Translations under genes and position numbers: made by a program
Notes under the pieces: model-generated
Database searches by the model: none
What the model was told of the DNA's origin: nothing
Seen by the model: only the letters and a program-made list of their open reading frames with translations
In this document: piece after piece, positions 9,855 through 57,247 of the stretch
Position numbering within the stretch: the stretch's first letter is position 1
Layout: every line of letters starts with the position of its first letter
Assembly: GCF_943736985.1 (NCBI RefSeq)
Contig: NZ_CALSFS010000010.1
Span: forward strand, 62,001-126,000
DNA from: Clostridium sp. Marseille-Q2269
Lineage (GTDB): Bacteria; Bacillota; Clostridia; Clostridiales; Clostridiaceae
DNA: 64,000 nucleotides
Reading direction: 5' to 3'

Positions 9855-9865
9855 GGTGGACAATA

Positions 9866-12994: not shown

Positions 12995-12998
12995 ATAT

Positions 12999-15403: not shown

Positions 15404-15414
15404 GAGGTTTTATT

Positions 15415-19989: not shown

Positions 19990-20237
19990 AATAACACTCC
20001 TTTCTTATAGAATTTGTCCTTTCATAAATAGTTTATGTTCTTTTATTTATAACGTGTAATTTTTAACTATAATAGAAATGAAATTTTTAGGAAAGATATA
20101 AATTTACTCAATACATTTTAAAATTAAATGTTCAAATTTAAACTTGTTTTTTTAATTGATATTAAATAAATAATTTTAATACTTATGATGTAGGTTATAA
20201 TAATAATAAATCCATATAGAAAGGAATATATAAAACA

Positions 20238-42283: not shown

Positions 42284-42325
42284 AAAAACACTGCCTCAAT
42301 ATTAATTAAGACAGTGCTTTTTTTA
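42284..42325 (-). terminator. Terminator after manA
   Basis: CACTGCCT (42289-42296) pairs with AGACAGTG (42309-42316), with one G-U pair. The loop is A/T, and the minus strand ends in a run of T residues. It abuts the manA stop and closes the long minus-strand cluster. Confidence 0.75.
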
Positions 42326-43300
42326 TTCAACTTCTTTTAATATTTCATTTTTTATTTTATTTATATCAGGTACATAACTTTTCAAAAGTTTCATGTTTCC
42401 CTTTAAAGTGTATTCACCTAAATAAGCTGGAACTAAGAAACTGTCACCTTTCTTAATTTGTTCTTTATTGTCACCACTTGTTATTATTCCTTCACCTTCA
42501 ACACAAGTAAATATAAAAAATCTTTCTTTGTCGCTACATTCCACTGCTTCCTCTAAAATATCATAAAGTTCTAATGAAAATTCTTCACACAAGCATAAAT
42601 AAGTTTTTTCGTATCCACTTTCTATAACTTTTAAGCCTTTTCTTTTATTTGAGCTTAATTGTAAGTTAATTACATCTAGTGCCTTCTTTACATGAATTTC
42701 TCGTCCTCTATTATAATCGTAGACTCTGTATGTGGTATCACTATTTTGTTGAATTTCTGCTATTACCACACCTTCTCCAATAGCATGGATAAGGCCACTT
42801 TTTACAAAATATACGTCACCTTTTTTTACTTGAACTTTATTTAAATGTTTTTCAACATCTCCTGATTCAAGTGCATCTTTTATATCTTGCTTTGTTACTC
42901 CTTCTTTTGTCCCTACCACAAGATTTGCACCTTCAAATGCATCTACTACATACCATACTTCTGTTTTTCCTAATTCACCCTCTACTTTTCTTGCATATTC
43001 ATTTTCAGGATGCACTTGAACAGATAAAGGCTCATTAGCATTTATAAGCTTAACTAAAAGTGGAAATTTTTCTTTATCTATTTTTGTTCCTAATAATTCA
43101 TCTTTATATTCTTCTATAACCTGCTTTAAAGTTTTTCCCTTAAAGATACCATTAGATACAATACTCATACCATTTTCATGACAAGCTACATCCCAACTTT
43201 CTCCAATATTTCCCTTAGGTAAATTATCTCTAAATAATTCTAAATGGCGTCCACCCCATATTTTTTCATAATATAAATTCTCAAATTTTAATGGATACAT
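42323..43300 (-). CDS. manA: Mannose-6-phosphate isomerase, class I
   Basis: About 325 residues; interconverts mannose-6-phosphate and fructose-6-phosphate using zinc. Signatures are IWGGRHLELFRDNLPKGNIGESWDV, the zinc ligands in LVKLINANEPLSVQVHPENEYA, GKTEVWYVVDA and SGLIHAIGEG. ATG at 43300 is chosen because AGGAGT lies seven bases upstream. It is the last gene of the minus-strand cluster containing the PTS and glycyl-radical enzyme, so it may feed a hexose phosphate made there into glycolysis; it could equally be an independent housekeeping gene. Confidence 0.93.
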   Translation of the reverse strand: MYPLKFENLYYEKIWGGRHLELFRDNLPKGNIGESWDVACHENGMSIVSNGIFKGKTLKQVIEEYKDELLGTKIDKEKFPLLVKLINANEPLSVQVHPENEYARKVEGELGKTEVWYVVDAFEGANLVVGTKEGVTKQDIKDALESGDVEKHLNKVQVKKGDVYFVKSGLIHAIGEGVVIAEIQQNSDTTYRVYDYNRGREIHVKKALDVINLQLSSNKRKGLKVIESGYEKTYLCLCEEFSLELYDILEEAVECSDKERFFIFTCVEGEGIITSGDNKEQIKKGDSFLVPAYLGEYTLKGNMKLLKSYVPDINKIKNEILKEVE

Positions 43301-43492
43301 AATCATACTCCTATTCTTAATTTTATATTTTAAAATTATTTGTAGTTTCTTAAAAAAATTATATATTACTATTCATCTAAATGTAATGGTTTATTGTATA
43401 AATAAAACTATTTTTTTCTACATACTAGGGTAAATATCTTATATCTGTATAAAAAACATATAATATATAAACTTTTCTTTTAATTATAAAAT

Positions 43493-44476
43493 CTATAAAT
43501 CTGATGGAAATACTACGCCCATCTGCTTTCTAGCTTTTTGTAATATTCTCATTACAATTTTTGAAGTACTATAAGAATTTATACTTGACTCTAATTTTCC
43601 TGATTTAATAATTTCTACAAATTCTTTTGCTTCATAATACATTGTATCCTTTGATTGAGATATTGTAATATCTTCTACTTCACCATTTTTATATGAAATT
43701 TTTATATTTTCTGGAGTGTGTATCTTATCTATAATCATATTACCATTCTCACCTTGTATTTCACTCGGTATAGAAGAATTAGCTATTTTAGAATGCATTA
43801 TTACAGCATCCATATCTTCATAATTTAAAATTAAACTTCCTTCTCCATCAACTCCAGATTCTAATAAAACACCTGTTGCGCATACTTCTTTAGGTTCTCC
43901 AAAAAGATGTACTAACGGATAAATGCAATAAATACCTATATCCATAAGGGATCCATTAGAAAATTTAGGATTAAATGTGTTTGGATTCTCTCCACCCTTA
44001 TATTTATCATATCTTGAAGAGTATTGACAATAGCTGCTAAAGTATCTTCTTATTTTACCTATCTTATGTAGATTATTTTTTATAACATAAAAGTTTGGTA
44101 AAAAAGAAGATTTCATTCCTTCCATTAATGCTACTTTATTTTCTTTAGCTATATTTATTATTTCCTCCAACTGTCTCAAATTAGATGTTATAGGTTTTTC
44201 ACACATAACATGTTTTTTATTTTCTAAAAATATTTTAGCTTGAGAGGCATGAAAAGAATTGGGACTGGCTATATATACTGCATCTATACAATTACTTTCC
44301 GCCATCTTGTTAATATCCGTAAAAATTTTACTTATTGAATATTTACTCCCGAATTCCTTTGCTTTTTCTTCTGTTCTAGAATATATTGCAGTTAACTGAA
44401 AATCTTCTACTAACTCAGCACATCTTATAAATTCTTCTGTTATCCAACTAGTTCCTACTACTCCAAATCTTATCAA
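43493..44476 (-). CDS. Gfo/Idh/MocA-family oxidoreductase
   Basis: 327 residues: Rossmann domain (VGTSWITEEFIRCAELVEDFQLTAIYSR) with the EKP catalytic-lysine motif (HVMCEKPITSN) and a C-terminal GFO_IDH_MocA domain (GGENPNTFNPKFSNGSLMDIGIYCIYPL is the typical DxGxYxI helix). Such enzymes oxidise or reduce sugars, inositols and sugar derivatives with NAD(P). It starts at TTG behind AGGAAGTGA. Its position between the GntR regulator and manA suggests action on the metabolite of the PTS/glycyl-radical locus. The substrate is unknown. Confidence 0.85.
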   Translation of the reverse strand: MIRFGVVGTSWITEEFIRCAELVEDFQLTAIYSRTEEKAKEFGSKYSISKIFTDINKMAESNCIDAVYIASPNSFHASQAKIFLENKKHVMCEKPITSNLRQLEEIINIAKENKVALMEGMKSSFLPNFYVIKNNLHKIGKIRRYFSSYCQYSSRYDKYKGGENPNTFNPKFSNGSLMDIGIYCIYPLVHLFGEPKEVCATGVLLESGVDGEGSLILNYEDMDAVIMHSKIANSSIPSEIQGENGNMIIDKIHTPENIKISYKNGEVEDITISQSKDTMYYEAKEFVEIIKSGKLESSINSYSTSKIVMRILQKARKQMGVVFPSDL

Positions 44477-44592
44477 AAAATCACTTCCTATATTACATAT
44501 TTATAAAAATGTTATTCAACATTTTTTACTATAACAAATTATGAGTTGTTTACAAATAAAAAATTCAAACTACATAATTAAAAACTTTAATG

Positions 44593-45258
44593 TTAAGTGG
44601 ATATAATTGTTACATCTGAATTATACTTAATCTGTTTACTTATTTGAATTAGTACATTGTTAGAATATAAATTATGTGTAGTTTGGATAGAATGTGTAAC
44701 CTTTTTAGGGGTATATTGGTTTATTATATGTTCATCCTCTATTAGTACACTTTTTAATTCTTTTCTATCATGTGTTAATGCATATTTCATCTCATCTTGA
44801 AAATAGCTTAAAATGCTGCCTTCACATTTTTTTACATTAAAATTTTCAAATAAATCATAAGGTACATATCCCTCTTCATAAATCACATTATCTTCTGTTT
44901 TAATTATTCGTTTATATGTGTGTAAATATTTTGAATTAAACTTCTCTCCAATATGATTTAAAATTGTTTTAAACTCTAACACAATTGTAGAATGTTTTGC
45001 TTTACTTTCAACACTTAAAGATGCAATAGTAGTATTTAAATAAAATTCTCTAGGATTTATATAATATCCTTTTCCTTGTTTAGAATTAACATATCCTTTT
45101 TCTATTAACTTTTTTAAAGCCCTTCTTACAGGCTCTCTAGATACGTTATATCTTTTACATATCTCATTTTCAGAAATTAACAATTCTCCTTCTTTAAATT
45201 CTTCATTTAATATTAATTTCTTTAATTCACCGTATACATAATCTTTTTTGGTAGTCAT
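44593..45258 (-). CDS. GntR/UTRA-family repressor of the glycyl-radical locus
   Basis: 221 residues: GntR winged helix (YVYGELKKLILNEEFKEGELLISENEICKRYNVSREPVRRALKKLIEKGYVNSKQGKGYYI) and a UTRA ligand domain (about 85-215). It follows the activase gene by about 40 bases on the same strand and is preceded by AAAGGAAGGATATAA. It is the best candidate to bind the ACTTGTAATTAYAAGT palindromes at the promoters of the glycyl-radical enzyme and of the PTS regulator; AraR-type members of this family recognise similar TTGTA...TACAA halves. Confidence 0.88.
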   Translation of the reverse strand: MTTKKDYVYGELKKLILNEEFKEGELLISENEICKRYNVSREPVRRALKKLIEKGYVNSKQGKGYYINPREFYLNTTIASLSVESKAKHSTIVLEFKTILNHIGEKFNSKYLHTYKRIIKTEDNVIYEEGYVPYDLFENFNVKKCEGSILSYFQDEMKYALTHDRKELKSVLIEDEHIINQYTPKKVTHSIQTTHNLYSNNVLIQISKQIKYNSDVTIIST

Positions 45259-45296
45259 TTATATCCTTCCTTTATGCAACTGTAGTATATAAAGTT

Positions 45297-46214
45297 TTAA
45301 ATCTTTTCATTTTCAATTATACCATTTTTTAATCCATTTTCTTTTAAAATTTTTTTCCACTTAATTTTATTTTCTTCTGAAGGAATTTGAAACTTAGTCT
45401 GTTGATTTACATATTTAAATCTATTAACTTTTATTAAATTATGATATGGTAAAATGTCTACTTGCTTGATATTTTTATATTTATTTGAAATACAAGAAAT
45501 AGCTTTAAAATGTTCTTCTGTATCATTTACACCTGGAATTATAGGACATCTTAAGGTTATAATTTTATTATTATTATTTAATAATTCTATTATCTTATAA
45601 AAATCAAATTCTCTTCCAACATATTCTTTGTATCTTTCTTTATCTGTTAACTTATAATCTAACAAATATTCATCTACAAAATCTATTGTTTTTTCTATAT
45701 TATTATTAATATCATATCCACTAATATCTAAACAAATATTAATACTTAGTTCTTTTAATTTATGGCCCAGTTCACAAATAAAATCTATTTGGTTAAGAGC
45801 TTCCCCTCCACTAAAGGTAACTCCACCTTTAGAATTATCATAATAATCTTTATCTTTCATAATAATATTAATTAATTCCTCAGTTGTATATTTCTTTCCA
45901 TACTTACTATAAGCTTTCATTGGACAAACTTCTATTAAATCAAAATTTTCATCATGCTTTGAAAAATCTATTTTTAATTCATTATTTATTATTTCTATGC
46001 CATCACCTTTTACATATTTAACACATTTGCCACATAAAATACATTTCTTAGGATTGTAATTAAATTGTATTTTAGGAGAAATAGATTCTGGATTATGACA
46101 CCATTTACATCTTAAAGAACAACCCTTAAAAAATAGGGTTGTTCTTATTCCTGGACCATCATTAACAGAAAAGCGTTGTATATCAAATAATATTCCTTTT
46201 TTACTCATTGACAC
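45297..46214 (-). CDS. Glycyl-radical-enzyme activating protein
   Basis: 305 residues, radical-SAM activase. The SAM cluster motif is CSLRCKWC, a ferredoxin-like insert carries CILCGKCVKY and a later Cys (VCPMKA), and GGVTFSGGEAL plus YLLDYKLTDKERYKEYVG complete the family core. The ferredoxin insert has one canonical CxxCxxC group and appears partly degenerate compared with the two full clusters of the paralogue at 12093. It lies 15 bases after the glycyl-radical enzyme it presumably activates. The GTG at 46214 (after GGAAGGGAAGTAA) or the ATG at 46208 may be the start. Confidence 0.92.
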   Translation of the reverse strand: MSMSKKGILFDIQRFSVNDGPGIRTTLFFKGCSLRCKWCHNPESISPKIQFNYNPKKCILCGKCVKYVKGDGIEIINNELKIDFSKHDENFDLIEVCPMKAYSKYGKKYTTEELINIIMKDKDYYDNSKGGVTFSGGEALNQIDFICELGHKLKELSINICLDISGYDINNNIEKTIDFVDEYLLDYKLTDKERYKEYVGREFDFYKIIELLNNNNKIITLRCPIIPGVNDTEEHFKAISCISNKYKNIKQVDILPYHNLIKVNRFKYVNQQTKFQIPSEENKIKWKKILKENGLKNGIIENEKI

Positions 46215-46229
46215 TTACTTCCCTTCCTT

Positions 46230-48518
46230 TTAATCATTACAGGTTCTTGCCATAATTTCTCTTTGAACATCATCTTCCAAATTAACAAATCTTGCACTAA
46301 AGCCACCTACACGAACTGTCAAGTTTTTATATGCTTCTGGATTTTTATATGCTGCTTCTAATTCTTCTTTTCCTACAACATTTATCATTAATTGGGGTCC
46401 GCCTTTTTTAAAGTAGGTAGAAAATAGAATCTTTATTTTATCTTTTTCTTTATTAAACATTTTTTTAGAAAATTTAATATTTTGTACACTTCCTCCATGA
46501 ATATCTGCTCTTATTTTAGCTAATGAGTTTAACATTGCAGTTGGGCCATTTATATCAGCTCCACTTTGTGGATTATTAGCATTACTCATATATAAACCAG
46601 CTATTCTTCCATCTGGTGATGATGCTGTAGCTCTCCCCCATTCTGTATTAACTTGATTATTTATTACAACTACTAGCCAACTATCCAATCCAACTTTAGG
46701 AGCTTGTTTAGCTACTTCATTACAAGTAAATTCATGAAGTTCCACTGCTAATGAATCTACATAGTCATCATCATTTCCAAATTTAGGGCACTCTTTCATT
46801 TCTTCTTGAACATCTTCAAATCCATCAAAATCTTTTGATAGTATTTCTTGAATTTCAGTTAATGTGTATTTTTTATCATCAAATACTAATTTTTTAATTG
46901 CTGCTAATGAATCTGCAGTACTCATATTACCATACATTTCATTTGTACCACCTAGATGTTTTACACCACCATTTAAAACCATTTTACCTCTACCTATACA
47001 ATCATCTATTAAAATACTAGTATATATAAATCCTACCTTTCTATTCATAACCTTATAGGAATGTGCATGAGCTTCTGCTGTTAATTCAATATAGTATGTT
47101 AATAGCTTTTTATATTCGTTGAAGAATTCATCAAAACTTTTAATGTGCTCCATTTTCTTTAATTTAAGTTCACCATATTTATATTTATAATTCCACTGAT
47201 CCACACCATCATGTATAAATATTGTTAAAGCTTTCAATAAATTAATGCATGCATTTGGTGTACCTACTCCTTGGCCTGAAAGTACAAATTCTCCACAACC
47301 AAAAGGAACATATTGTTCTGCTGTTCTTTCATCTACATGCATTGTTTTCATAACAGCAGGAACATTTACATCATCATTATAAATAATAGGATAAGTTGTT
47401 CCTTCACCTATAGAATTAAGAGCTATATCATATATTGCAGGATCCATTCCTTTATAAATTCTTAATGTAAATTGTGGTTCTACTAATTTTGCTCTTTTTG
47501 TAGCTTCTATAGCTAGTCTGCAAAAAACATCTGCATTTTTAGGATTTCTTCTTCCTCTGCCTCCAACAATAACCCTACCATTTACATTTGTTCTTTTAAC
47601 TTCTATCAATCTCCATTGAGACTCTATATATTCAATTGCTTCTTCTTCTGTAATTATTTTATTTTCCAAATCATGAACTAAATAATCTCCTAAATAGTCA
47701 TCCATTCTACCATAATTAACTACACCGGATACTGATGAATATAACCAAGCTAGTTGCATTGCAGAAATAAAAGAATTTGGTTTATCATTTTCAATTGTTT
47801 TAAGAGCTTTTAACAACTTCTCCATTTGATTTTTTCTTTTAGGAGAAAGACTTTCTTTTTGAAGCTTAACTTCAACCTCTCTTATGTGATGCGTAACTAC
47901 ATTTTGCAAAAGCTCTAATGCTTCAATCATAACCTGATATTCTTCTGTTGAATTAGGATTTATTTTTCTTTTTGAATTTATCAAATCTTTTAATCCATTT
48001 ATTCCATTTTCAAGTAATAAATTATAATTTAAATACATACCACTAAAACGTGCAGTAATAATTGCTGGAAATAATACATCAACAAAACGCCCTAATACGT
48101 TTTCTTTTAGTCGTTCTCTATAAAAAACCTCTCTTGTATCATTTTCTTTCCAATATTCTTTTAAATAATCAATATCTTTTTTATACTTATCTCCAAGCTT
48201 TTCAAGTAATGAATCTAATTTTTCTAATCTACAATAATGCCCTGGTCCTCCAACAGATGTAACACTTCCAAAACCAATTAGTAATGCATCTAATCTACCT
48301 AAAATTAAATCATCTTCATACATTGGTCTAAACACTTTTGGGAAAAGTACTTTTAAACACTCTATTTCTCTTTTTAATTTTTCTTCATCTGTATATTTGC
48401 TGTGTACTCTTGTATACTCTAGCATAGTTTTTAATTGTTCTAATTCATTCATATATAAAGGTTCTTTTGGTGCTACTGCTACATTGGTGTCATTTTTTCT
48501 TAATTCTCTTATTACCAT
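46230..48518 (-). CDS. Glycyl radical enzyme of unassigned specificity (GCGE active site)
   Basis: 762 residues, intact. The thiyl-radical site is YVPFGCGEFVLSGQG (Cys408, Glu410) and the glycyl-radical loop is TVRVGGFSARF (Gly739). Single Cys-x-Glu marks a dehydratase/lyase/decarboxylase-type enzyme rather than pyruvate formate-lyase, which has Cys-Cys. GCGE differs from the GCVE of the paralogue at 12999 and of most known C-O lyases, so substrate cannot be assigned. A PTS permease and PRD regulator lie upstream and a sugar dehydrogenase downstream, pointing to a phosphorylated sugar or polyol. AGGAGGGTGTATTT precedes the ATG. The protein must work anaerobically in the cytoplasm. Confidence 0.93.
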   Translation of the reverse strand: MVIRELRKNDTNVAVAPKEPLYMNELEQLKTMLEYTRVHSKYTDEEKLKREIECLKVLFPKVFRPMYEDDLILGRLDALLIGFGSVTSVGGPGHYCRLEKLDSLLEKLGDKYKKDIDYLKEYWKENDTREVFYRERLKENVLGRFVDVLFPAIITARFSGMYLNYNLLLENGINGLKDLINSKRKINPNSTEEYQVMIEALELLQNVVTHHIREVEVKLQKESLSPKRKNQMEKLLKALKTIENDKPNSFISAMQLAWLYSSVSGVVNYGRMDDYLGDYLVHDLENKIITEEEAIEYIESQWRLIEVKRTNVNGRVIVGGRGRRNPKNADVFCRLAIEATKRAKLVEPQFTLRIYKGMDPAIYDIALNSIGEGTTYPIIYNDDVNVPAVMKTMHVDERTAEQYVPFGCGEFVLSGQGVGTPNACINLLKALTIFIHDGVDQWNYKYKYGELKLKKMEHIKSFDEFFNEYKKLLTYYIELTAEAHAHSYKVMNRKVGFIYTSILIDDCIGRGKMVLNGGVKHLGGTNEMYGNMSTADSLAAIKKLVFDDKKYTLTEIQEILSKDFDGFEDVQEEMKECPKFGNDDDYVDSLAVELHEFTCNEVAKQAPKVGLDSWLVVVINNQVNTEWGRATASSPDGRIAGLYMSNANNPQSGADINGPTAMLNSLAKIRADIHGGSVQNIKFSKKMFNKEKDKIKILFSTYFKKGGPQLMINVVGKEELEAAYKNPEAYKNLTVRVGGFSARFVNLEDDVQREIMARTCND

Positions 48519-48555
48519 AAATACACCCTCCTAAATATTTATCATATTATGATAT

Positions 48556-48650
48556 ACTTATAATTACAAGTTTTATAAAGCCGTATACTTTATTATATCA
48601 TTTATATATAAATCATTGAATTTCAATAATTATGAATTGTAATTACAAGT
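48556..48650 (-). promoter_or_regulatory. Promoter of the glycyl-radical operon flanked by two palindromes
   Basis: ACTTATAATTACAAGT (48556-48571) lies between the start codon and a TATAAT box (minus strand, 48592-48597). AATTGTAATTACAAGT (48635-48650) lies upstream of the -35 region (which is weak, near 48615). The two 16-mers are near-perfect palindromes of one consensus and are about 79 bases apart, an arrangement suited to a looping repressor. The same motif sits at 52712-52727. Confidence 0.7.
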
Positions 48651-48817
48651 TAATTTTATATCTTATTTTCATATGAGTCAAGTTAAATTTAAATGAACTA
48701 TGGAATAGTTATATTATTTATAATTTTGTTAAAAATTACTTTGATTTTTTAATAATTATAAATTTAAATTACGTTATAACTTATAACGTTAATATTAAAT
48801 CATTATATAACCATATA

Positions 48818-48853
48818 AAAACAGCAACCTAATTTTTATTAGATTGCTGTTTT
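48818..48853 (-). terminator. Terminator after the PTS gene
   Basis: Sixteen-base arms around AACAGCAACC/GATTGCTGTT (one mismatch) with a T-rich loop, immediately after the PTS stop. It separates the PTS unit from the radical-enzyme unit, which therefore needs its own promoter. Confidence 0.75.
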
Positions 48854-48856
48854 ATA

Positions 48857-50761
48857 TTATGCTGCTGAGATAGATTTTTTTCTTCTTTTATTGAGTAATT
48901 TTTTCATAAATATTGTTGCAAATCCAGTTACAAGAGAACCTGCCAACATTGCTAACAATGCTAATAATGGTTTATTTATAGCTCCAAATAATACAACTAT
49001 TGGGCCACCATGAGCTACGTTATTTCTAATTCCGAATAAAAAACCTAAAACGCACGCTACTACACTACCTAACATATTAGAAGGTATTATAGCTAAAGGA
49101 TCACTAGCTGCAAAAGGTATAGCCCCTTCTGAAATACCAACAAGTCCCATTGCTAAAGCTGCTTTACCATTAGCTACTTCTTCTTCATTAAACAACTTCA
49201 TTTTTTTACCTATGAAAGTTGCTATTGCCATACCAATTGGTGCTACTGGAATAGCACAAGCTTGTGCTCCCATGAATTGAGTTTGTCCATTAGCAATTAA
49301 CCCTACACTAAACATAAATGCTACTTTACCAAAAGGTCCGCCCATATCAAATCCTTGCATCAAACCTATAACAATACCAATAACAACAAGACTTCCTGAA
49401 GATAGAGATTGTAGCATTCTAACTAAAGAATCCATTAATGAAGCTATTGGTGCACCTATAACTAATATAAATATTGCAGATATAGTTAATGAACCAAGAA
49501 TAGGTATTATCATAATTGGAACTAAAGGCTCCATCATCTTAGGGAATTTCCATGATTTAATCCATTTAACAAGATATCCAGCAATAATTCCTGCTATAAT
49601 AGCTCCTATAAACCCAGTACCTGAAGCTGCATGATAAAAAGAACCATCATTAGCTATCCATCCGCCTATCATACCTGGTGCTAATGCCGCTCTGTCTCCA
49701 ATTCCATAAGAAATATAACCAGCAAGTATAGGTATCATAAGTTTAAATCCTACTGTACCAACATTAAGTATTTGGTTCCAAAAACTATCTTTCGGTATCT
49801 GAAGACCATTTGGAGTAGGCTTACCACCTACAGCAAGAGAGATTGCAATTAATAATCCTCCTATTACTACGAATGGTATCATATATGAAACACCATTCAT
49901 CAAATATTTATATAGTCCTGTTTTTTCTTTTGAAGAACTATTTGAAGATGTTTTTTTATTATTAGATGCGTATATAGGTATATTACCATTTAAAGCCTCA
50001 TCTATAAGTTCCTTAGGTCTATCTATAGCTTCTTTTACATTTACAAATATAACTTTTTTTCCATTAAATCTATCTAATTCAACTTGCTTATCACAAGCTA
50101 CAATAATAGCCTCAGCTTTATCAATTTCAGCTTTTGTAGGTACATTTTCAACTCCTACAGACCCATTTGTTTCTACTTTTATATCCACTCCAACTTCATC
50201 TGCATATTTCTTTAAAGCCTTTGCTGCAAGATAAGTATGAGCAATACCTACAGGACAACCTGTAACACCTATTAAAAATCTTCCATCTTTCTTCTTTTCA
50301 TTAGACTCTTTTTCCTCTTCTTTAAAAAGATTAAGAACTTCCTTTGCACTGTTAGCTTTCAACAAAGCTTGTTTAAATGAAGCATCAAGTAATCTTGAAG
50401 TTATTTCAGACAATGTTTTTACATGTAAATCACTAGAATTATCTGGCATAGCTATTAAAAAGAATACTTTAGATTTCTCTCCATCTAAAGAGTTACAATC
50501 TATACCTTTTTTACTTATCCCTATAGCAATGGAAGCTTGTTTTACATTGCTTGATTTAGCATGTGGCATTACTACACCATCTTCAAAAGCCGTAGACATT
50601 TGACTTTCTCTTTCTAATACATCATTTACAAAAAGCTTTACATTTGTAATCTTATCATTTTCATATAAAAGTTCTGAAAGTTCTTTTATAGCTTCTTCTT
50701 TTGTGTTTCCCTTTAAAGAAACTTTAATTAAATTTATATTTATCATATCATTAAAATTCAT
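48857..50761 (-). CDS. Fructose-family PTS permease, EIIABC
   Basis: 634 residues that import and phosphorylate a sugar or polyol. EIIA (about 1-150) has the phospho-His in VVMPHAKS (His67). EIIB (about 160-260) has the phospho-Cys in GVTGCPVGIAHTYLAA (Cys169). EIIC (about 285-625) has eight or more membrane segments, with GxxIxxISEGAIPFAASDP, a family hallmark. The family includes fructose, mannosylglycerate and Frw-type permeases, so fructose is not implied. It lies four bases after the PRD regulator and upstream of the glycyl-radical enzyme. AGGTGATATA precedes the ATG. Confidence 0.9.
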   Translation of the reverse strand: MNFNDMININLIKVSLKGNTKEEAIKELSELLYENDKITNVKLFVNDVLERESQMSTAFEDGVVMPHAKSSNVKQASIAIGISKKGIDCNSLDGEKSKVFFLIAMPDNSSDLHVKTLSEITSRLLDASFKQALLKANSAKEVLNLFKEEEKESNEKKKDGRFLIGVTGCPVGIAHTYLAAKALKKYADEVGVDIKVETNGSVGVENVPTKAEIDKAEAIIVACDKQVELDRFNGKKVIFVNVKEAIDRPKELIDEALNGNIPIYASNNKKTSSNSSSKEKTGLYKYLMNGVSYMIPFVVIGGLLIAISLAVGGKPTPNGLQIPKDSFWNQILNVGTVGFKLMIPILAGYISYGIGDRAALAPGMIGGWIANDGSFYHAASGTGFIGAIIAGIIAGYLVKWIKSWKFPKMMEPLVPIMIIPILGSLTISAIFILVIGAPIASLMDSLVRMLQSLSSGSLVVIGIVIGLMQGFDMGGPFGKVAFMFSVGLIANGQTQFMGAQACAIPVAPIGMAIATFIGKKMKLFNEEEVANGKAALAMGLVGISEGAIPFAASDPLAIIPSNMLGSVVACVLGFLFGIRNNVAHGGPIVVLFGAINKPLLALLAMLAGSLVTGFATIFMKKLLNKRRKKSISAA

Positions 50762-50765
50762 TATA

Positions 50766-52697
50766 TCACCTCTTAGATTTAATAAGTTTCATAAAGTTTT
50801 CAAAACAATCTGCCTTTACTAATTCCAATACTCCTTTTTTATCATCTAATATTGAAAAAAGTGTATCAAATATATTTGTAAAATCTTCATCTGTCATTTT
50901 TTCAAGGGCTAATAAAAGTACAATTTGAACCATATTCTCACCCCATTGAATAGGTTTCTCTAATATCCCTATAGCAATCTTTGAATCAATAACGTTTTCA
51001 AACAATGCATGAGGTATAGCTACTAAATTACTAATAGATGTGGATGATATTTGTTCTCTTTCTATAACTGATTGTAAAAATTCTTCTGTAACACAATTTT
51101 TATCGTTTAGTAATTTACTTAATATTTTTATGACTTCAAACTTATCCTTAGTTTTTATTCCTTTAATATATAAATCCTTGTGGAACAAATCATACAATTT
51201 AATTTTTTCACTTACTTTTTCTGAGTCTTCTATAACATCTCTTATTTTTTGTAAATCTTTTTTCCCTAATAAAGAACTAACATATATAACAGGAACATTA
51301 TTAACCTTAATAGGTATAGTACTTAATATTAAGTCCGGTTTTTTTAATAATACTTCTTCAATTTTATAAGATGGATGTATACCCGTTATAATAATATTAG
51401 GAAATGTATTTCTTATTTTAGAAGCTAATAACTGTGCTGTACCTATCCCTGTAGAGCAAATTATAGCTACCTTTTTAATTGTTTTTTTCCCTATATCCTT
51501 TTTTCTTTCAAGAGAAGCTCCTATATGCATTGCTATATATCCTATTTCATCTTCATTAATCTTTAGATTAATATTATGCTCTAATACTTTGCTAGCAACA
51601 ACACCCATTTCAAAGGCACGAGGATATTCTTCTTTTATTTCATTTAATAATGGATTTCTTAAATTCATATTATACTTCACTCTATTAACGGCAGGCTTTA
51701 AATGTAAAACTAATCCATAAATTAATTTTTCGTCTTTTGAAAAATTAATTTTGTATACTTCCTCTAATTTTGTTAACATGTCATATATAATTTTAAGTAA
51801 ATTACTTCCTATAACAGCTTCTAGTTCTTCCATATTAAGCTCTTCATCTTTTAATGCTTTAATTCCAAGTAAATGTATTGTGATATATGCTTTCTCTCCA
51901 TGGGGTATACTGATACAAAACTCTTTTTCTAAAGTATTTACAATTTTCTCTGCCATTTCATATTCTTTTTTACCCTTTAGATTTGTAATTTCAGTTGGAG
52001 GTAAGCTAATATCTTTTCCTTCTTTAATTCTTTTAATTGCTATTGCAATGTGTATTATTAAATTATTAAAAGCAACATCAGATAACTTTAACGAAGTTAT
52101 TTCGTCCATATCCAGTATAATATTTCTTATTTTATCAACATTCATATTTAAAATATCTTCTATATATTTTGTATCACAAATACTCATAAAGTAATCTGAT
52201 ATAGAATATCTAAACTGCATTTCATCCCCATGTATTTTTATGCCATAATTAGGTCTTTTAATTAATTCTAAATTATTCTTTTTAACCCACTTCTCAACTT
52301 TATCAATATCGTTGTCCACAGTTGATTTACTTACATATAACTCATTGGACAATTGTTCCAAAGTTATAAATTTGCTAGTATCTAAAAGTCTTTTTATTAT
52401 ATAAAAAACTCTGTCTTCTGGAAGTATTGCTATATTGTCTTTTGTCCCTTCAGTATATTTTTTTAATACTTTGAAAGTGTTGTTATTATATGGATTAACA
52501 CTATATCCAATTCTAGGTGTAGATGTAATTTCTATTTCTTCTGTCTTTAATTCCTTATTTAATAGTTTTATATCATTCCGTATAGTCCTTGAAGATACTC
52601 CAACTACTTTTGATAAATACTCTCCTGTAATGGGCCCATTACATTCTATAAATTCACTTATTATTTTCTTTTTGCGCGCATCATAACTCAAATTCAT
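50766..52697 (-). CDS. PRD-containing PTS-regulated transcriptional activator (MtlR/LicR-type)
   Basis: About 643 residues. It has an N-terminal HTH pair (ITGEYLSKVVGVSSRTIRNDIKLLNKEL and FITLEQLSNELYVSKSTVDNDIDKVEKW) and two PTS-regulation domains (about 170-390). An EIIB-like domain follows with Cys in VAIICSTGIGTAQLLASKI, and an EIIA-like domain has His in VAIPHALFEN. Phosphorylation by HPr and the partner PTS tunes such activators. ATG at 52697 is chosen (GAGAGGTGAG upstream) over an ATG at 52730 with no ribosome site. The gene is co-transcribed with the PTS gene. Confidence 0.9.
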   Translation of the reverse strand: MNLSYDARKKKIISEFIECNGPITGEYLSKVVGVSSRTIRNDIKLLNKELKTEEIEITSTPRIGYSVNPYNNNTFKVLKKYTEGTKDNIAILPEDRVFYIIKRLLDTSKFITLEQLSNELYVSKSTVDNDIDKVEKWVKKNNLELIKRPNYGIKIHGDEMQFRYSISDYFMSICDTKYIEDILNMNVDKIRNIILDMDEITSLKLSDVAFNNLIIHIAIAIKRIKEGKDISLPPTEITNLKGKKEYEMAEKIVNTLEKEFCISIPHGEKAYITIHLLGIKALKDEELNMEELEAVIGSNLLKIIYDMLTKLEEVYKINFSKDEKLIYGLVLHLKPAVNRVKYNMNLRNPLLNEIKEEYPRAFEMGVVASKVLEHNINLKINEDEIGYIAMHIGASLERKKDIGKKTIKKVAIICSTGIGTAQLLASKIRNTFPNIIITGIHPSYKIEEVLLKKPDLILSTIPIKVNNVPVIYVSSLLGKKDLQKIRDVIEDSEKVSEKIKLYDLFHKDLYIKGIKTKDKFEVIKILSKLLNDKNCVTEEFLQSVIEREQISSTSISNLVAIPHALFENVIDSKIAIGILEKPIQWGENMVQIVLLLALEKMTDEDFTNIFDTLFSILDDKKGVLELVKADCFENFMKLIKSKR

Positions 52698-52711
52698 CTC
52701 ACCTCTCTTGT

Positions 52712-52780
52712 ACTTGTAATTATAAGTCATGTACTATGACAATGCAATTCAACAATTTTCCGCATATATTGCGGAAAATT
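52712..52780 (-). promoter_or_regulatory. Promoter, operator and upstream palindrome of the regulator-PTS unit
   Basis: On the minus strand TTGCAT (52742-52747), 17 bases and TATAAT (52719-52724) form a strong sigma-A promoter. The -10 lies inside ACTTATAATTACAAGT (52712-52727), identical to the copy at 48556. Just upstream, AATTTTCCGCA and TGCGGAAAATT (52754-52764, 52770-52780) form an 11-base palindrome, a candidate site for the PRD activator itself. Confidence 0.75.
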
Positions 52781-53024: not shown

Positions 53025-53804
53025 TTATTCCTTGTGCTTTTCTTCTTCATAAACAGAAGGTAATATTTTTGCTAAGTTGCTATATTCTTTAATATTATGA
53101 AGAAGCAACCTCTTTGCTACTTCTAATGGCACCTTATCACCTTCTGGTAAAATCTTAACTGGTTTTTTATCTACAATATTATATCCAATCCAAAATCTTG
53201 AACGAAGTTCTATTCCATGTTCTACTGATCTTATTGAATGACACATAACTGCATCATCCCCATTTCCTGAAACTATTGACAAAACATTAGATTGTTTTAA
53301 AAGTTTCATATCAAATCCCATATCTTCTGGAGACATAAAGTTTATATAAATAGTCCTTGATCCAAATCCTGTATCCTCATCAACAGTGTGAGTGACTCCC
53401 CATATTCTTTCTTCCATAGGAATGTTTTTATTCAATAGCCTTTCCCGTTTTGTAGTTTTAATTCCAAAATGATCTTCTCTATTCCATATTTTATATCTTA
53501 ATGGTTCTAATCCATGCCAAGCAAACCACCAATCAAACATTTCTTTAGTAACTTTGGGCATTTTTATAATATTAGAAACAAATCCAGTACCATTATCCAT
53601 TACACAATAACCTACTTCAGCATCAAGGTATCCTATGTTTAATAATTCATCCTTATTTTCTATAGTTAGTGCTTCCTGTGATTTTATTGGTCCTTCCATG
53701 ATTTTTTCTAGTGAATCTTTTGGCTGTTTTGCCATTTCCATATAATAATATTTAGAATAGCTAATATTCTTTTCATAATCTTCTAACTCTTTTATATATG
53801 ACAT
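53025..53804 (-). CDS. PhlG/phloretin-hydrolase-like C-C hydrolase
   Basis: 259 residues resembling the 2,4-diacetylphloroglucinol hydrolase (PhlG, DAPG hydrolase) family, zinc enzymes that cleave a carbon-carbon bond next to a phloroglucinol ring. Phloretin hydrolase of gut flavonoid degraders belongs to the same family. Visible motifs are WWFAWHGLEPLRYKIWNREDH (about 92-112), a zinc-ligand type HTVDED and the C-terminal HxxxE (His236, Glu240). It lies downstream, on the same strand, of two reductase genes and shares their direction. GGGGGAATAAGT precedes the ATG. The true substrate is not known. Confidence 0.82.
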   Translation of the reverse strand: MSYIKELEDYEKNISYSKYYYMEMAKQPKDSLEKIMEGPIKSQEALTIENKDELLNIGYLDAEVGYCVMDNGTGFVSNIIKMPKVTKEMFDWWFAWHGLEPLRYKIWNREDHFGIKTTKRERLLNKNIPMEERIWGVTHTVDEDTGFGSRTIYINFMSPEDMGFDMKLLKQSNVLSIVSGNGDDAVMCHSIRSVEHGIELRSRFWIGYNIVDKKPVKILPEGDKVPLEVAKRLLLHNIKEYSNLAKILPSVYEEEKHKE

Positions 53805-53972
53805 ACTTATTCCCCCATTATTTATTTTTACATATATTGTTTGTTCATTGATTTTAATAATTATAATATTCTATAATTATTTCAAACTGCAAAATCTTAA
53901 TTATTTTAGGATTAATTATATTAACACAGTAAATACTTATAAAACAGTTTGTCAATAATATGTAAATAAATA

Positions 53973-55973
53973 TCAAATTTCTATTGCCATATTAAATCCT
54001 GCATGAACTGCACTATATACATTACCTATTTCTTTGCCATCTCCAATTACATAAACTTCTGTTTCTGGAATTGTATGTCTCAGTGTATCTATAGTTTTCC
54101 TACGCCTTTTCATTCCTAAAGCTAATAGAACTGTATCAGCCTCATATTCCTTCCATTGAAACTTAGAATTAATTGTCTTGATGCCTTTTTCGGTAATTTC
54201 TTCCAATTTAGTATTAGTTACAACTTTAACTCCATGTTTTTTTAGTAAAGATTCTAGGGAAAATCTATTAATTAATGAAGCTCCATTAAGTAAAGCCTCT
54301 GAACCTTGCATTTCTATTAAAGTAACTTCTTTGCCTTTCATAGCTAGACTAACTGCTGATTCTGCACCTGTCAGTCCACCACCAATTATTATAACGCTTT
54401 GTCCAACCTCTACTTTTCCACAATCTGCATCACCTGACCAATGAACATGACCCTTATGAATTCCTGGAATATTAGGAATAAGTGGTGTTGCACCAACAGC
54501 TAAAATTAATGCATCTGGATTTTCTAATTTTATAGTTTTCTCTGTAGCTTCTGTATTTAACTTTACTGTTGCTTTACTCTTTAAAGTTTGATTAACTATC
54601 CACTTTAAGTAATTTCTTAGATCTTTTTTAAATTCAAGATCTATAGCATAATTTAAACTACCACCTAATTTATCTTCTTTTTCAAAAAGAACAACTTCAT
54701 GTCCTCTTTCAATAGCAGTAAGTGCAGCTTGCATTCCAGCTGGTCCACCTCCAACTATTACTACCTTTTTCTTACTATCTGCCTTTGGAATTTTACCATT
54801 AGGATAATCTATTTCACGTCCATTTATTGGATTAACTGCACATCTAGTCTTTTTAAAAAAAGCTGAACGACCACAACATGTATTACAACGTAAGCATGGT
54901 CGTATATCATCTGTTTTTCCAAGAACAGTTTTCCTCATAAACTGAGGATCTGCTACAAAAGGTCTTGCCATTGCTACAAAATCAACTAATCCTCTTGATA
55001 ATATTTCTTCTGCATTATCTAAAGTCATTACCGAACCAACTGCAGTTACATATATATCGCTACCAACTGCTTTCTTAATTTCTTCCGCAAAATGTATATT
55101 TAACATATACGGTATATACATAGGTTGAATCATATATTGAATTGTAAATTGGTTAGGAAGCATACCAGCGGAAACATGTAGAATATCAATCTTATCTTTT
55201 ATTAATTTTACAAATTCAATTACTTCCTCAGTTTTCATGCCACCATGAACCAGTTCATCTGCACTAATTCTATATTCTATAATAAAATTTTCACCAACTC
55301 TTCTGCGCACAGCATCTAATAATTCAATACAGAACCGTGCTCTATTTTGAAAACTTCCCCCATATCTGTCTGTGCGTTTATTTACATAAGGAGATAAAAA
55401 CTGTGCCGGAAGCATGCCATGAGCTCCATGAATCATTACCATTTTAAAGCCACTATCTTTGCATCTACCAGCAGCATCTGCATAATCTTGAATAGTTTTA
55501 TTTATCAATGAAATATCCATTTCCTCAACTTCTCCTGGAGTCTTTCCTTGCAATTTTGAAAAATATTCATCAATTTCTGCTGGTTTTGAAGTGGAGCTTA
55601 CTGGTTTTAATCCTTTAGATGCTAGATTTATTGAATTAGCAAACCGTCCTCCATGATTTAGTTCTATAGAAATTAATGCTCCAAATTTTTGTACTTCATC
55701 TGCTAAATGATCTAGTCCCATCTTAACATTATCATTACCTAAATTAATTTGTCCTTCATGATCCATAGCATGTTCCCAGTTCACAGCAGAATCTCCTACT
55801 GTAACTATTGCTGCACTTCCCCTTGCAAAAGTTTTATAAAATTCTATAAGTTCCTTTGTAATCCATCCTTCTGGTGTGGCCATACAAGGTACCATTGGTG
55901 CTACTTCAATTCTATTTTTAAATTCTACACCTTTAATTATTATAGGTTCAAATACATGCTTATACTTCTTCAT
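53973..55973 (-). CDS. Old-Yellow-Enzyme type NADH:flavin ene-reductase (FMN, FAD, 4Fe-4S)
   Basis: 666 residues, like 2,4-dienoyl-CoA reductase, BaiCD and cinnamate-type reductases. The FMN TIM barrel (about 1-350) includes the HGAHGMLPAQFLSPYVNKRTDRYGGS motif, where the proton donor sits. The 4Fe-4S cysteines are CLRCNTCCGRSAFFKKTRC. The FAD/NAD domain starts at VVIVGGGPAGMQAALTAIERG, with an inner VIIIGGGLTGAESAVSLA. It reduces activated C=C bonds anaerobically. Grouped with a PhlG-like hydrolase and a flavodoxin-fold reductase, a plant phenolic or flavonoid is a plausible substrate. GGGTGTATTTTTT precedes the ATG. Confidence 0.88.
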   Translation of the reverse strand: MKKYKHVFEPIIIKGVEFKNRIEVAPMVPCMATPEGWITKELIEFYKTFARGSAAIVTVGDSAVNWEHAMDHEGQINLGNDNVKMGLDHLADEVQKFGALISIELNHGGRFANSINLASKGLKPVSSTSKPAEIDEYFSKLQGKTPGEVEEMDISLINKTIQDYADAAGRCKDSGFKMVMIHGAHGMLPAQFLSPYVNKRTDRYGGSFQNRARFCIELLDAVRRRVGENFIIEYRISADELVHGGMKTEEVIEFVKLIKDKIDILHVSAGMLPNQFTIQYMIQPMYIPYMLNIHFAEEIKKAVGSDIYVTAVGSVMTLDNAEEILSRGLVDFVAMARPFVADPQFMRKTVLGKTDDIRPCLRCNTCCGRSAFFKKTRCAVNPINGREIDYPNGKIPKADSKKKVVIVGGGPAGMQAALTAIERGHEVVLFEKEDKLGGSLNYAIDLEFKKDLRNYLKWIVNQTLKSKATVKLNTEATEKTIKLENPDALILAVGATPLIPNIPGIHKGHVHWSGDADCGKVEVGQSVIIIGGGLTGAESAVSLAMKGKEVTLIEMQGSEALLNGASLINRFSLESLLKKHGVKVVTNTKLEEITEKGIKTINSKFQWKEYEADTVLLALGMKRRRKTIDTLRHTIPETEVYVIGDGKEIGNVYSAVHAGFNMAIEI

Positions 55974-56087
55974 AAAAAATACACCCCTAATATTTATACT
56001 ATAATTTAAAGCATGCTATATAAGTTTTTTAAGTAAACCTATATGGTATGTTTTAAAATTCAAATAGATAATTATAATACTATGATT

Positions 56088-57041
56088 TTATTTTTTTATT
56101 TCGATACCTGGAAATTTTAATTCTTTATATTTAGCAAACTTTTCTTTAACAATAGCTAAATTTTCTTCTGTATAAAATCCACCTTGTGTATGCTCAATTT
56201 CTCTTAAATGCTTTTCTCTTCCCTCTACAGATGTACGATCACGACTTAAACCATCTTCCTGAATCACAAACTTCCACTTGCCATCTTCTGTCTTTTCTAA
56301 ATTTCCACCTGCACCACATACTTGACATTCAACTGGGAAACGTACACCATCCCATTGCATTTCTCCCAAAATTAACGCATTAGAATGGCAATGTGGGCAC
56401 CATCCCATATTCTCTTCTCCCATCCATGCTCTTTCTTTAGCTGGAGTATTTAATGATTTCATAATGTTTTCTCCCATTTTATGAGCACGCTGAATCATGT
56501 CATCATGTAATAAGCATTGTTTTGGTGCTGGTACTCTAGTTGCTAAATACATGTCTACTACTTTAAAATCATTTGTAAAACAGGTAGCTTGTATACTTTC
56601 TAAAGCCATTGATTGCCATGAACGAGTAGAACCACCAACTGAAATTAATCCAGCAACTCTATCTTTATGTTCAATTGCTCCAATTAATTCTAAAAATGCT
56701 GACTCATATGCTAAATTTCTATGCATAAATTTTAAATATGTGGCTGTTGCCGTTAAATCATATGTAGGCGCTGATACAATTAAGGCATCTACATTTAACA
56801 TTACTTTCATGATTTCTTCTTTATCATCTTTTTTACTTAGTGTACATCCAACATTTTTCCCATTAATCATCCCCTGTGTGCAAGCTGTACAACCTGAACA
56901 TTCCATGATATTATAATCTCTTAAATTAATCATCCTTACATGTGCACCTTGTTCTTCACATGCAAGTAATGCCTCTTTCAATAAAATTTCCGAATTTGAA
57001 TCCTTTCTTCCTGCTGTAATACCTAATACTGTAAAACTCAT
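56088..57041 (-). CDS. Flavodoxin-fold NAD(P)H-dependent FMN oxidoreductase
   Basis: 317 residues. Residues 1-200 form a flavodoxin-like domain: LGITAGRKDSNSEILLKEAL for FMN phosphate, MECSGCTACTQG, and VSAPTYDLTATATYLKFMHR. The C-terminal part has two CxxC pairs (CPHCHS, CQVCG), a zinc-ribbon-like region, then a helical tail. It heads the minus-strand trio with the ene-reductase and PhlG-like gene, so it may act on the same compound rather than just recycle flavin. AAAGGAGATGACAGT precedes the ATG. Confidence 0.82.
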   Translation of the reverse strand: MSFTVLGITAGRKDSNSEILLKEALLACEEQGAHVRMINLRDYNIMECSGCTACTQGMINGKNVGCTLSKKDDKEEIMKVMLNVDALIVSAPTYDLTATATYLKFMHRNLAYESAFLELIGAIEHKDRVAGLISVGGSTRSWQSMALESIQATCFTNDFKVVDMYLATRVPAPKQCLLHDDMIQRAHKMGENIMKSLNTPAKERAWMGEENMGWCPHCHSNALILGEMQWDGVRFPVECQVCGAGGNLEKTEDGKWKFVIQEDGLSRDRTSVEGREKHLREIEHTQGGFYTEENLAIVKEKFAKYKELKFPGIEIKK

Positions 57042-57247
57042 ACTGTCATCTCCTTTTCATAATGTTAATATGTCTGTATTTTATTATTTTTTAATAAAAC
57101 ATAAATTTCTGCTTACAGAAACAAATGAATTAGTATAATATTAACATGTATAGAAATGCCATTCATCCAAAATAAGTTTTAAAATATTAACTTGAAATAT
57201 ATAATATTTAGACATTTTTATAATTATAATAAAGTAAGGAGAAGCCT

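Follow-up and report, generated by a model that had tools for sequence, protein, structure and literature searches.

A separate branch of glycyl radical enzymes in a predicted regulon with a mannose-type phosphotransferase system in Clostridium sp. Marseille-Q2269

A glycyl radical enzyme linked to a phosphotransferase system

We analysed a 64-kb stretch of the genome of Clostridium sp. Marseille-Q2269 (contig NZ_CALSFS010000010.1, positions 62,001 to 126,000), hereafter the window. Its minus strand carries, at 42323-52730, seven genes for a PRD activator, a phosphotransferase system (PTS) enzyme IIABC, a glycyl radical enzyme (GRE), its activase, a GntR regulator, a Gfo/Idh/MocA dehydrogenase and the mannose-6-phosphate isomerase ManA. 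A preliminary description of the sequence had named these genes, and their strand, positions and families are all as described there. With high confidence, we conclude that the GRE belongs to a separate branch of its superfamily and that it lies in a predicted regulon with a mannose-type PTS. GREs perform some of the hardest anaerobic reactions, and no assigned reaction for this branch was found in the literature searched, which consisted mostly of non-subscription papers. For the locus as a whole, we favour, with a probability of about 0.45, a catabolic module under GntR and PRD control for a mannose-like compound with a bond that resists hydrolases. The gene partners of the branch point to mannose-like 6-phosphates, and thereby make the substrate question testable with a handful of compounds.

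The genes are listed below. Labels of the form L001 denote stretches of DNA from relatives and labels of the form G001 the genomes of relatives.

50766..52697, minus strand: PRD activator with HTH/Mga and EIIB/EIIA-like domains, by family profiles (reading frame open from 52730)
48857..50761, minus strand: PTS enzyme IIABC of the fructose superfamily, mannose (ManP)-type by similarity (profiles and identity)
46230..48518, minus strand: GRE of 762 amino acids in one open frame (PF02901, 368 bits; PF01228, 87 bits)
45297..46214, minus strand: radical SAM GRE-activating enzyme (TIGR02494, 267 bits; cut-off 174)
44593..45258, minus strand: GntR regulator with a TreR/UTRA-like effector part (PF00392), candidate reader of the palindrome described below
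43493..44476, minus strand: Gfo/Idh/MocA dehydrogenase (PF01408)
42323..43306, minus strand: ManA of the B. subtilis type (TIGR00218, 203.4 bits; cut-off 116.2)

The enzyme and its branch

The two GRE domains, the thiyl cysteine loop, the glycine radical loop and the adjacent activase gene place the protein in the GRE superfamily at the level of sequence. Cys408 and Glu410 (in GCGEF) and the radical Gly739 (in RVGGF) are at the positions that had been assigned to them in the preliminary description. The nearest solved fold to an AlphaFold2 (AF2) model of the enzyme (mean pLDDT 89.1) was the B12-independent glycerol dehydratase (GDH) of Clostridium butyricum (1r8w, TM-score 0.85), which is also its best sequence match and shares the thiyl cysteine, the glutamate and the glycyl radical. 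The two enzymes differ in that their identity is only about 25-29%, and the branch lacks the residues aligned to His164 and His281 of GDH. In the 17 branch rows aligned, a glycine (Gly160 in the window) occupies the column of GDH His164, at which YbiW and PflD retain the histidine, and a deletion of seven columns removes the His281-Ser282 stretch. The window GRE thus lacks the substrate-binding residues of the glycerol/diol dehydratases, which are given here in GDH numbering.

A pattern search of 84,980 species genomes yielded 39 loci with relatives at 36-87% identity. In a first tree of 45 rows, the window GRE fell within a branch of 28 rows (support 100/100, stem of 2.74 changes per column), outside of which stood YbiW, PflD, glycerol dehydratase, pyruvate formate-lyase (PFL) and the unlabelled GREs L042, L047 and L050. 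When relatives from Bacteroidota were added in a second tree, the branch held 37 of the 41 rows, again with support of 100/100; here the outsiders were YbiW, PflD, one PFL and L047 only, and the PFL row carried a long-branch warning. Long-branch rows were flagged in both runs. The rows were drawn by patterns of the window GRE or by a model of its group, and the branch is therefore sampled around the window GRE. It spans Bacillota, Pseudomonadota, Bacteroidota, Spirochaetota and Chloroflexota, and in the second tree it is divided into a window group (15 of the 41 rows), a middle set and an outer set.

The preliminary description had named one outcome that would speak against a new activity, namely that the GRE clusters with a subfamily whose substrate is known; no such clustering was seen. 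Neither tree groups the window GRE with YbiW, PflD or PFL, nor does the first tree, the only one to hold it, with glycerol dehydratase; among the unlabelled outsiders, L042 and L050 were covered by the first tree only and L047 by both. Identities in the alignment were 24.0% to YbiW, 22.3% to PflD and 28.6% to part of GDH. CutC, HypD, HpsG/HpfG and two decarboxylases were compared through NCBIfam profiles and structure searches rather than in the trees, and the window GRE fell far below every one of these profile cut-offs; isethionate lyase appeared as a weak match among solved structures only. On none of the eight full-length GRE equivalogs among the profile matches listed did the enzyme reach a quarter of the cut-off, and it scored 293.8 bits against the PFL2-3 profile TIGR01774 (cut-off 678.2), on which YbiW and PflD reach 1412 and 1356 bits. 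Four relatives from the branch scored on GRE profiles like the window GRE.

The preliminary description had also argued for a new activity from the motif GCGE, as opposed to GCVE. As a sign of novelty specific to the window, the motif had to be rejected: GCGE is present in 36 of the 37 branch rows, the exception being Parabacteroides with GCTE, and hence marks the whole branch. Furthermore, the middle residue of Cys-x-Glu varies among enzymes of known substrate, with GCIE in YbiW and GCVE in PflD. Since YbiW reads GCIE, GCVE cannot serve as a fixed mark of C-O lyases. The putative novelty of the enzyme rests on the tree and not on the motif.

Predicted substrate type of the transporter

Family profiles place the IIA, IIB and IIC domains of the PTS on a single chain. 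This chain is 57% identical to a Vibrio PTS (L106) whose gene ends about 70 bp before manA in genome G938, as compared to 39% for E. coli FruA (over 464 columns) and 32% for E. coli MngA. In Vibrio cholerae, the gene pair VC1826-VC1827 is described as a PTS for mannose (and fructose) in an operon with mannose-6-phosphate isomerase, the VC1826 PTS having formerly been annotated as a fructose PTS (PMC9392796). Our comparison used the G938 pair, which has the same gene layout. The window PTS is nearer to the mannose type than to FruA or MngA, and from this similarity it is predicted to import a mannose-like compound. The presence of ManA in the window adds to the likeness. The Vibrio ManP-ManA system differs in that it is under AraC-type control, comes with no GRE and takes mannose itself as its substrate.

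Among curated profiles, MngA (PRK09765) gave the window PTS its highest score, 401.7 bits against a cut-off of 763; this profile is also the top match of the mannose-type Vibrio PTS.

Regulation and transcription units

The following regulatory features were located in the window:

52712..52727, minus strand: operator-like palindrome before the PRD-PTS genes (exact match; counterpart at 5920-5935 in Maledivibacter L001)
48817..48851, minus strand: terminator-like hairpin with T-run behind the PRD-PTS genes (-18.7 kcal/mol, z -9.0, equalled by 0 of 200 shuffles)
48653..48681, minus strand: promoter-like site (TTGACT, 17 bp, TAAAAT) before the GRE gene, by consensus match only
48635..48650, minus strand: operator-like palindrome 1 before the GRE gene, just behind the -10-like box (one mismatch; exact in L001 at 9878-9893)
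48556..48571, minus strand: operator-like palindrome 2 before the GRE gene (exact match)

The palindrome ACTTRTAATTAYAAGT, with at most one mismatch, occurs at three sites in the window, one before the PRD-PTS genes and two before the GRE gene. Shuffled versions of the window held 0.08 sites on average, and none of the 100 shuffles reached three. In Maledivibacter L001, the locus of the closest relative, a search with at most two mismatches also gave three sites (shuffle mean 0.19, maximum 2; three reached by 0 of 100 shuffles). Two of these are exact and lie at the equivalent promoters; the third lies elsewhere (20039-20054) and has two mismatches. The exact palindrome was found in five of the 159 fetched loci, all of them from Maledivibacter, and for other relatives the site was not found exactly.

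Promoter-like matches in the region (81) do not exceed those in shuffles (82.3), which is the chance level in DNA this rich in A and T. The layout of promoter and operator before the GRE gene is similar in L001, and in both species the palindrome stands directly behind the -10-like box, as a repressor site would. The regulon claimed in the preliminary description is borne out to the extent that one operator-like site is common to both promoters, in the window as well as in Maledivibacter, and we consider it justified to speak of a single predicted regulon. We infer that the palindrome would be bound by the GntR protein of the locus, which is 80% identical to its counterpart in L001. The effector half of this protein scored 20.7 bits as UTRA, below the Pfam threshold of 23.8, and residues 6-176 matched the trehalose-repressor profile with 71 bits, below the cut-off of 212.

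Because the operator-like site at 52712-52727 would otherwise fall inside the gene, the start of the PRD protein was moved inward and is probably 52697 rather than 52730; the PRD gene of L001 likewise begins behind its operator-like site. Due to the hairpin with T-run at 48817-48851, the PRD-PTS genes appear to be split from the GRE genes, and there are probably at least two transcription units, namely PRD-PTS and GRE-activase-GntR. A simple terminator scanner called no terminator at this hairpin. A strong hairpin with T-run closes the PRD-PTS unit in Maledivibacter as well. The Gfo and ManA genes, with gaps of 116 bp before Gfo and 186 bp between Gfo and ManA, may or may not be part of the second unit.

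Gene partners across the branch

Neighbouring genes were tabulated for 63 loci, of which 60 were kept after the duplicates L079, L087 and L093 were dropped. The window group comprises 26 distinct loci (the window and 25 others, at 50% identity or above), 15 of them placed by the second tree and 11 by identity alone. Genes were picked with the longest open reading frame first, which may hide some of them: a translated search recovered the activase of L017 and the GntR gene of L007, and the GRE of L021 was missed. Loci at contig ends understate their neighbours, and the counts were made without a control set of loci. Within the window group, an activase is found in 25 loci (in L016 the contig ends inside the GRE gene), GntR in 22 and PTS IIABC in 18.

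Enzymes acting on manno-configured sugars recur beside the GRE in different surroundings. In the Vibrio locus L081, the order is PTS, propeller, PhyH, GntR, GRE, activase, Gfo and ManA, with the last four co-directional. There, the picked Gfo frame and the activase share 4 bp, with the first ATG of Gfo some 15 bp past the activase, and ManA follows Gfo by 2 bp. This ManA, one of three in its genome, belongs to the E. coli type (TIGR00218, 306.5 bits). The window ManA is instead of the B. subtilis type and matches the solved structure 1qwr with an E-value of 1.5e-61. In Parabacteroides, a ROK kinase, NanE, the GRE and its activase form one run. In Erysipelotrichaceae-type loci, the GRE has NanE and ManA-like genes on its flanks; ManA-like genes are present in six of these loci, of which L016 has only a divergent kind of 600 amino acids. 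Unrelated settings thus link the GRE of this branch to enzymes for manno-configured hexose 6-phosphates. The Gfo gene lies close behind the GRE also in L001, L009 and L081. Among solved structures of named function, the Gfo protein is closest to dihydrodiol dehydrogenase and more distantly related to two 1,5-anhydrofructose reductases.

Alpha-mannosidase genes lie near GREs of the middle group, with GH38 in five loci and GH92 in six (two of them checked with Pfam). Both families are frequent in genomes of this kind, and these counts, which lack a control, weigh little.

Six loci of the middle set (L019, L021, L023, L024, L028 and L038) carry LacI-like and ROK genes, and several of them add amidohydrolase-like, GH13-like, Gfo, RpiB or Rpe genes. 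The kinase of L021 passes the allose-kinase cut-off, and L028 has RpiB; these loci make allose a tentative candidate substrate. Maledivibacter also holds, in L137 (5952-13797), a row of ManA, a PRD-regulator-like gene, PTS pieces and an MngB-like gene (31% to E. coli MngB), an array that is a separate mannoside-like system in this closest relative.

An oxygenase and a propeller beside the radical enzyme

In the vibrio loci L008, L009 and L081, a gene of the PhyH family and an NHL propeller gene lie between the PTS and GntR genes. The pair is present in three of the 26 loci of the window group and in six other loci. In Persicobacter, PhyH precedes the GRE by 12 bp and shares 57% identity with its Vibrio counterpart; a propeller nearby is 33% identical to that of Vibrio. 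Five of the seven Bacteroidota loci fetched from the middle set (L153-L157) hold both genes. These five display a cluster of PhyH, a nucleoside-hydrolase-like gene, an SMP-30-like propeller, GH92, Gfo, GRE, activase and an aldo/keto reductase; in L155, the Gfo gene is not labelled and there are an additional sugar-type ABC ATPase and a solute-binding protein.

The top solved fold for a model of the Vibrio propeller was PAL (3fvz, E-value 1.5e-12), which acts in peptide amidation. In this respect, the Vibrio, Persicobacter and some Bacteroidota loci resemble dealkylation by the PHM/PAL pair, as an oxygenase gene is found beside a propeller gene. The two differ since PhyH is of the 2-oxoglutarate type rather than a copper enzyme such as PHM; a zinc site and PAL-like activity of the propeller are putative. 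The finding of an oxygen-sensitive GRE coded beside an oxygen-requiring PhyH suggests two ways to one inert bond. The literature searched contained no paper joining glycyl radical and phytanoyl-CoA dioxygenase. Glycyl radical enzyme and mannose-6-phosphate isomerase are joined in three papers, of which the two listed are, judging from their titles, about Vibrio prophages.

When 398 genomes of the Vibrio phylum were searched for the propeller, three matches emerged, one of them G003; the other two are distant and have no GRE in the stretch read. In L141 (8793-10763), a propeller-PhyH pair stands beside an open reading frame that looks like a sugar transporter, with no GRE in the stretch read, which suggests that the oxygen-using pair works alone elsewhere. 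The PhyH and propeller neighbours of the GRE offer an independent and oxygen-tolerant route to learning the substrate.

Proposed mechanism

Based on these findings, we propose the following course of events. The mannose-type PTS would import the compound and phosphorylate it at O6, as its similarity implies. The activase would then place the radical on Gly739, Cys408 would abstract a hydrogen adjacent to a hydroxyl group, and the neighbouring C-O (or C-X) bond would be broken by the GRE; homology gives the class of the enzyme, and the reaction is conjectured. In a third step, to which we give somewhat less than even odds, the gene partners suggest that the sugar part would be released as a manno-configured hexose 6-phosphate. 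This product would be taken on by ManA in the window and in one Vibrio, and by NanE in Parabacteroides, while the Gfo dehydrogenase would act on a carbonyl fragment or on a keto or epimer form. The PhyH oxygenase and the PAL-like propeller encoded at the locus of some relatives may attack the same bond with oxygen. A bolder version, which we regard as rather unlikely, is that the branch represents a new class of GRE reaction: a radical lyase that would release a whole manno-hexose (6-phosphate) from a conjugate which is ether-like or resists hydrolysis in some other way. The oxygen-using PhyH and PAL-like propeller, encoded beside it in some relatives, would be its twin, and a single inert bond could thus be cut with or without oxygen.

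Several observations weigh against the proposed mannose-like compound. We know of no natural mannose compound that clearly fits both chemistries. The partners on which the third step draws are sparse: Gfo lies within 2 kb of the GRE in four of the 26 window-group loci, a true ManA in two and NanE in six, and the locus is reduced to GntR, PTS, GRE and activase in six enterobacterial loci and in six of the nine vibrio loci. ManA is absent from the Maledivibacter locus L001, that of the closest relative. The window ManA, 186 bp behind Gfo, may be a plain neighbour, and the ManA of L081 could serve the PhyH branch rather than the GRE. The usual substrate of NanE is N-acetylmannosamine 6-phosphate and not mannose 6-phosphate. 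DeoC, which points to a deoxysugar, is present in five of the 26 loci of the window group, although in none of the 18 loci with IIABC; it occurs in five Erysipelotrichaceae-type loci and in L033, 303 bp before the GRE. Regarding the propeller, the PAL match is one of many NHL folds and stems from a model built on an alignment of two sequences (pLDDT 79), and PAL was absent from its seven sequence matches, among which TRIM-type NHL domains were found instead. Finally, ManP transports fructose too (PMC9392796).

Alternative explanations

The strongest rival to a mannose-like conjugate is that the GRE is a third enzyme opening 1,5-anhydrohexitol 6-phosphates, an explanation that we hold to be unlikely but by no means negligible. 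The PTS would import 1,5-anhydromannitol or 1,5-anhydrofructose, Gfo would reduce the keto form, and the GRE would open the ring to yield 1-deoxyfructose 6-phosphate; in the vibrios, PhyH would hydroxylate C1 with oxygen, giving mannose 6-phosphate for ManA. The chemistry has precedent. PflD and YbiW open the 6-phosphates of 1,5-anhydromannitol and 1,5-anhydroglucitol to 1-deoxyfructose 6-phosphate after uptake by a PTS, as summarised in section 5.1 of PMC12441222, which cites Ma et al. 2024, and as the titles of PDB entries 8id0 and 8id7 indicate; this second-hand support upholds the premise from which the preliminary description had started. 1,5-Anhydromannitol, which lacks only the C1 hydroxyl of mannose, would be a fitting substrate for a mannose-type PTS. 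PMC12441222 also describes an aerobic route in Sinorhizobium, consisting of a reductase, C1 hydroxylation and mannose, which matches Gfo, PhyH and ManA of L081, and calls the C1-hydroxylating enzyme unidentified and P450-like (PMC12441222). It also reports that dihydrodiol dehydrogenase, the best named relative of Gfo, is an efficient 1,5-anhydrofructose reductase (PMC12441222). The literature searched contained no paper joining a glycyl radical enzyme with anhydroglucitol-6-phosphate.

The distribution of the aldolase FSA, which in E. coli is clustered with both PflD and YbiW, bears on this explanation. FSA and YbiW/PflD-type GREs (above 1100 bits) were scored in 17 genomes carrying a window-type GRE. 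All 13 YbiW/PflD-type GREs (in eight genomes) have an FSA gene scoring 220 bits or more no further than 5 kb away, as opposed to one of the 17 window-type GREs (in G536). Nine genomes lack a YbiW/PflD-type GRE, and of these only Maledivibacter G001 has an FSA that reaches 220 bits; three others hold weak matches of 149-167 bits, and five hold nothing above 78 bits. Two aspects of this census reduce its force in favour of a mannose-like compound: the completeness of the genomes is unstated, so that an absent FSA may reflect a gap (G1003 has only 1.2 Mb), and the FSA of G536, between a window-type and a YbiW-type GRE and about 1.6 kb from the former, could serve either. In that Vibrio-family locus (L082; G536:C23:219500-239400), a span of about 8 kb takes in the window-type GRE, FSA and the YbiW-type GRE together with an activase of its own.

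The window itself provides a further comparison. A YbiW-type locus on its plus strand (12093-16083) consists of an activase and a GRE, each split over two frames, and an open FSA-type aldolase gene (15415-16083); real frame breaks are indistinguishable from sequencing errors here. The C-terminal piece of the split GRE is 48% identical to YbiW and 40% to PflD. In contrast, no FSA gene adjoins the intact GRE. Close to the split locus, at 9087-10723, are genes for a DeoR-type regulator and a Cof-type phosphatase.

Taken together, the FSA distribution appears to have weakened the anhydrosugar explanation, and the 1-deoxyfructose route is kept as a rival. Citrobacter G004 and Buttiauxella G005 already hold orthologues of YbiW and PflD alongside the window-type GRE. 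The loss of the His164 and His281 region separates the branch from YbiW and PflD, and ManA in an operon without PhyH, as well as NanE in Parabacteroides, would be left unexplained. The resemblance to E. coli PflD and YbiW thus extends to the GRE fold and to a PTS-fed GRE with its own activase acting on a presumed hexose-type 6-phosphate; the differences are the low identity of 22-24%, the other branch, the lost histidine region and the rarity of FSA as a partner. Also, PflD sits with the Frw PTS, and the window GRE has a mannose-type IIABC instead. Of the substrate reading in the preliminary description, a PTS-fed, sugar-like substrate remains likely and can be narrowed by the mannose-type PTS, while the anhydrosugar part has lost ground through FSA. 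If the anhydrosugar explanation is true, the locus adds a route for 1,5-anhydromannitol, a compound tested as a low-energy carbohydrate according to the title of a 2026 paper (PMC13259140).

We rate as quite unlikely that the GRE is a dehydratase of a sugar phosphate or polyol phosphate, yielding a deoxysugar phosphate that a DeoC-like aldolase would cut, with ManA and Gfo as chance or upstream neighbours. Several solved GREs of the same fold are dehydratases by their PDB titles, DeoC is present over its cut-off in the Erysipelotrichaceae-type locus L003 and upstream of the GRE in L033, and the L021 kinase and L028 RpiB would be compatible with such a pathway. The scarcity of DeoC in the window group and its absence from the IIABC loci argue against it, as do the minimal enterobacterial gene set, which holds no aldolase, and the PhyH-propeller pair, which would find no explanation. 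In L002, DeoC lies directly before a different GRE. The region in question (L002, 4180-8211) codes for this second GRE (798 amino acids, GCVE, 681.8 bits to TIGR01774 and so barely above the cut-off), an activase and a DeoC-like protein ahead of the branch GRE on one contig.

Uptake and cleavage of 2-O-mannosylglycerate itself, first considered as MngA topped the profiles, is very improbable and was dropped. Besides the MngA profile match, shared by the mannose-type Vibrio PTS, this explanation has in its favour that glycerate beside the glycosidic oxygen would suit both a GRE and a PHM/PAL-like pair. The E. coli MngR-MngA-MngB system is similar in that a gene for a regulator of the GntR family adjoins that of a fructose-superfamily IIABC. 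It differs by the 32% identity of the PTS and by the use of the hydrolase MngB instead of a GRE. Moreover, two vibrio genomes (G003 and G917) hold separate, dedicated MngR-MngA-MngB genes in addition to the window-type GRE; mannosylglycerate is already served there, and the two systems co-occur in one genome.

There is equally little chance that the enzyme simply belongs to one of the known GRE subfamilies (glycerol dehydratase, PFL2-type, CutC, HypD or a decarboxylase), as the shared fold, Cys-x-Glu and radical loop are outweighed by profile scores far under the cut-offs and by the separate branch with full support in both trees.

Other observations

No near match to the window region was found in 72,556 plasmid records; a protein search of these matched 55 records, two of which carry members of the GRE branch. 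In 5,426 E. coli genomes, a search with the Citrobacter copy of the locus gave merely an edge match of 2%, in 21 genomes. Adjoining the seven genes in the window (53025-58501) lie a PhlG-like gene (PF18089), an FMN reductase-like gene, a PucR-type regulator on the opposite strand and a flavoenzyme of 666 amino acids, nearest to the BaiCD and bilirubin reductase profiles and below their cut-offs. This region is reminiscent of flavonoid-degradation genes that pair phloretin hydrolase and flavanone reductase.

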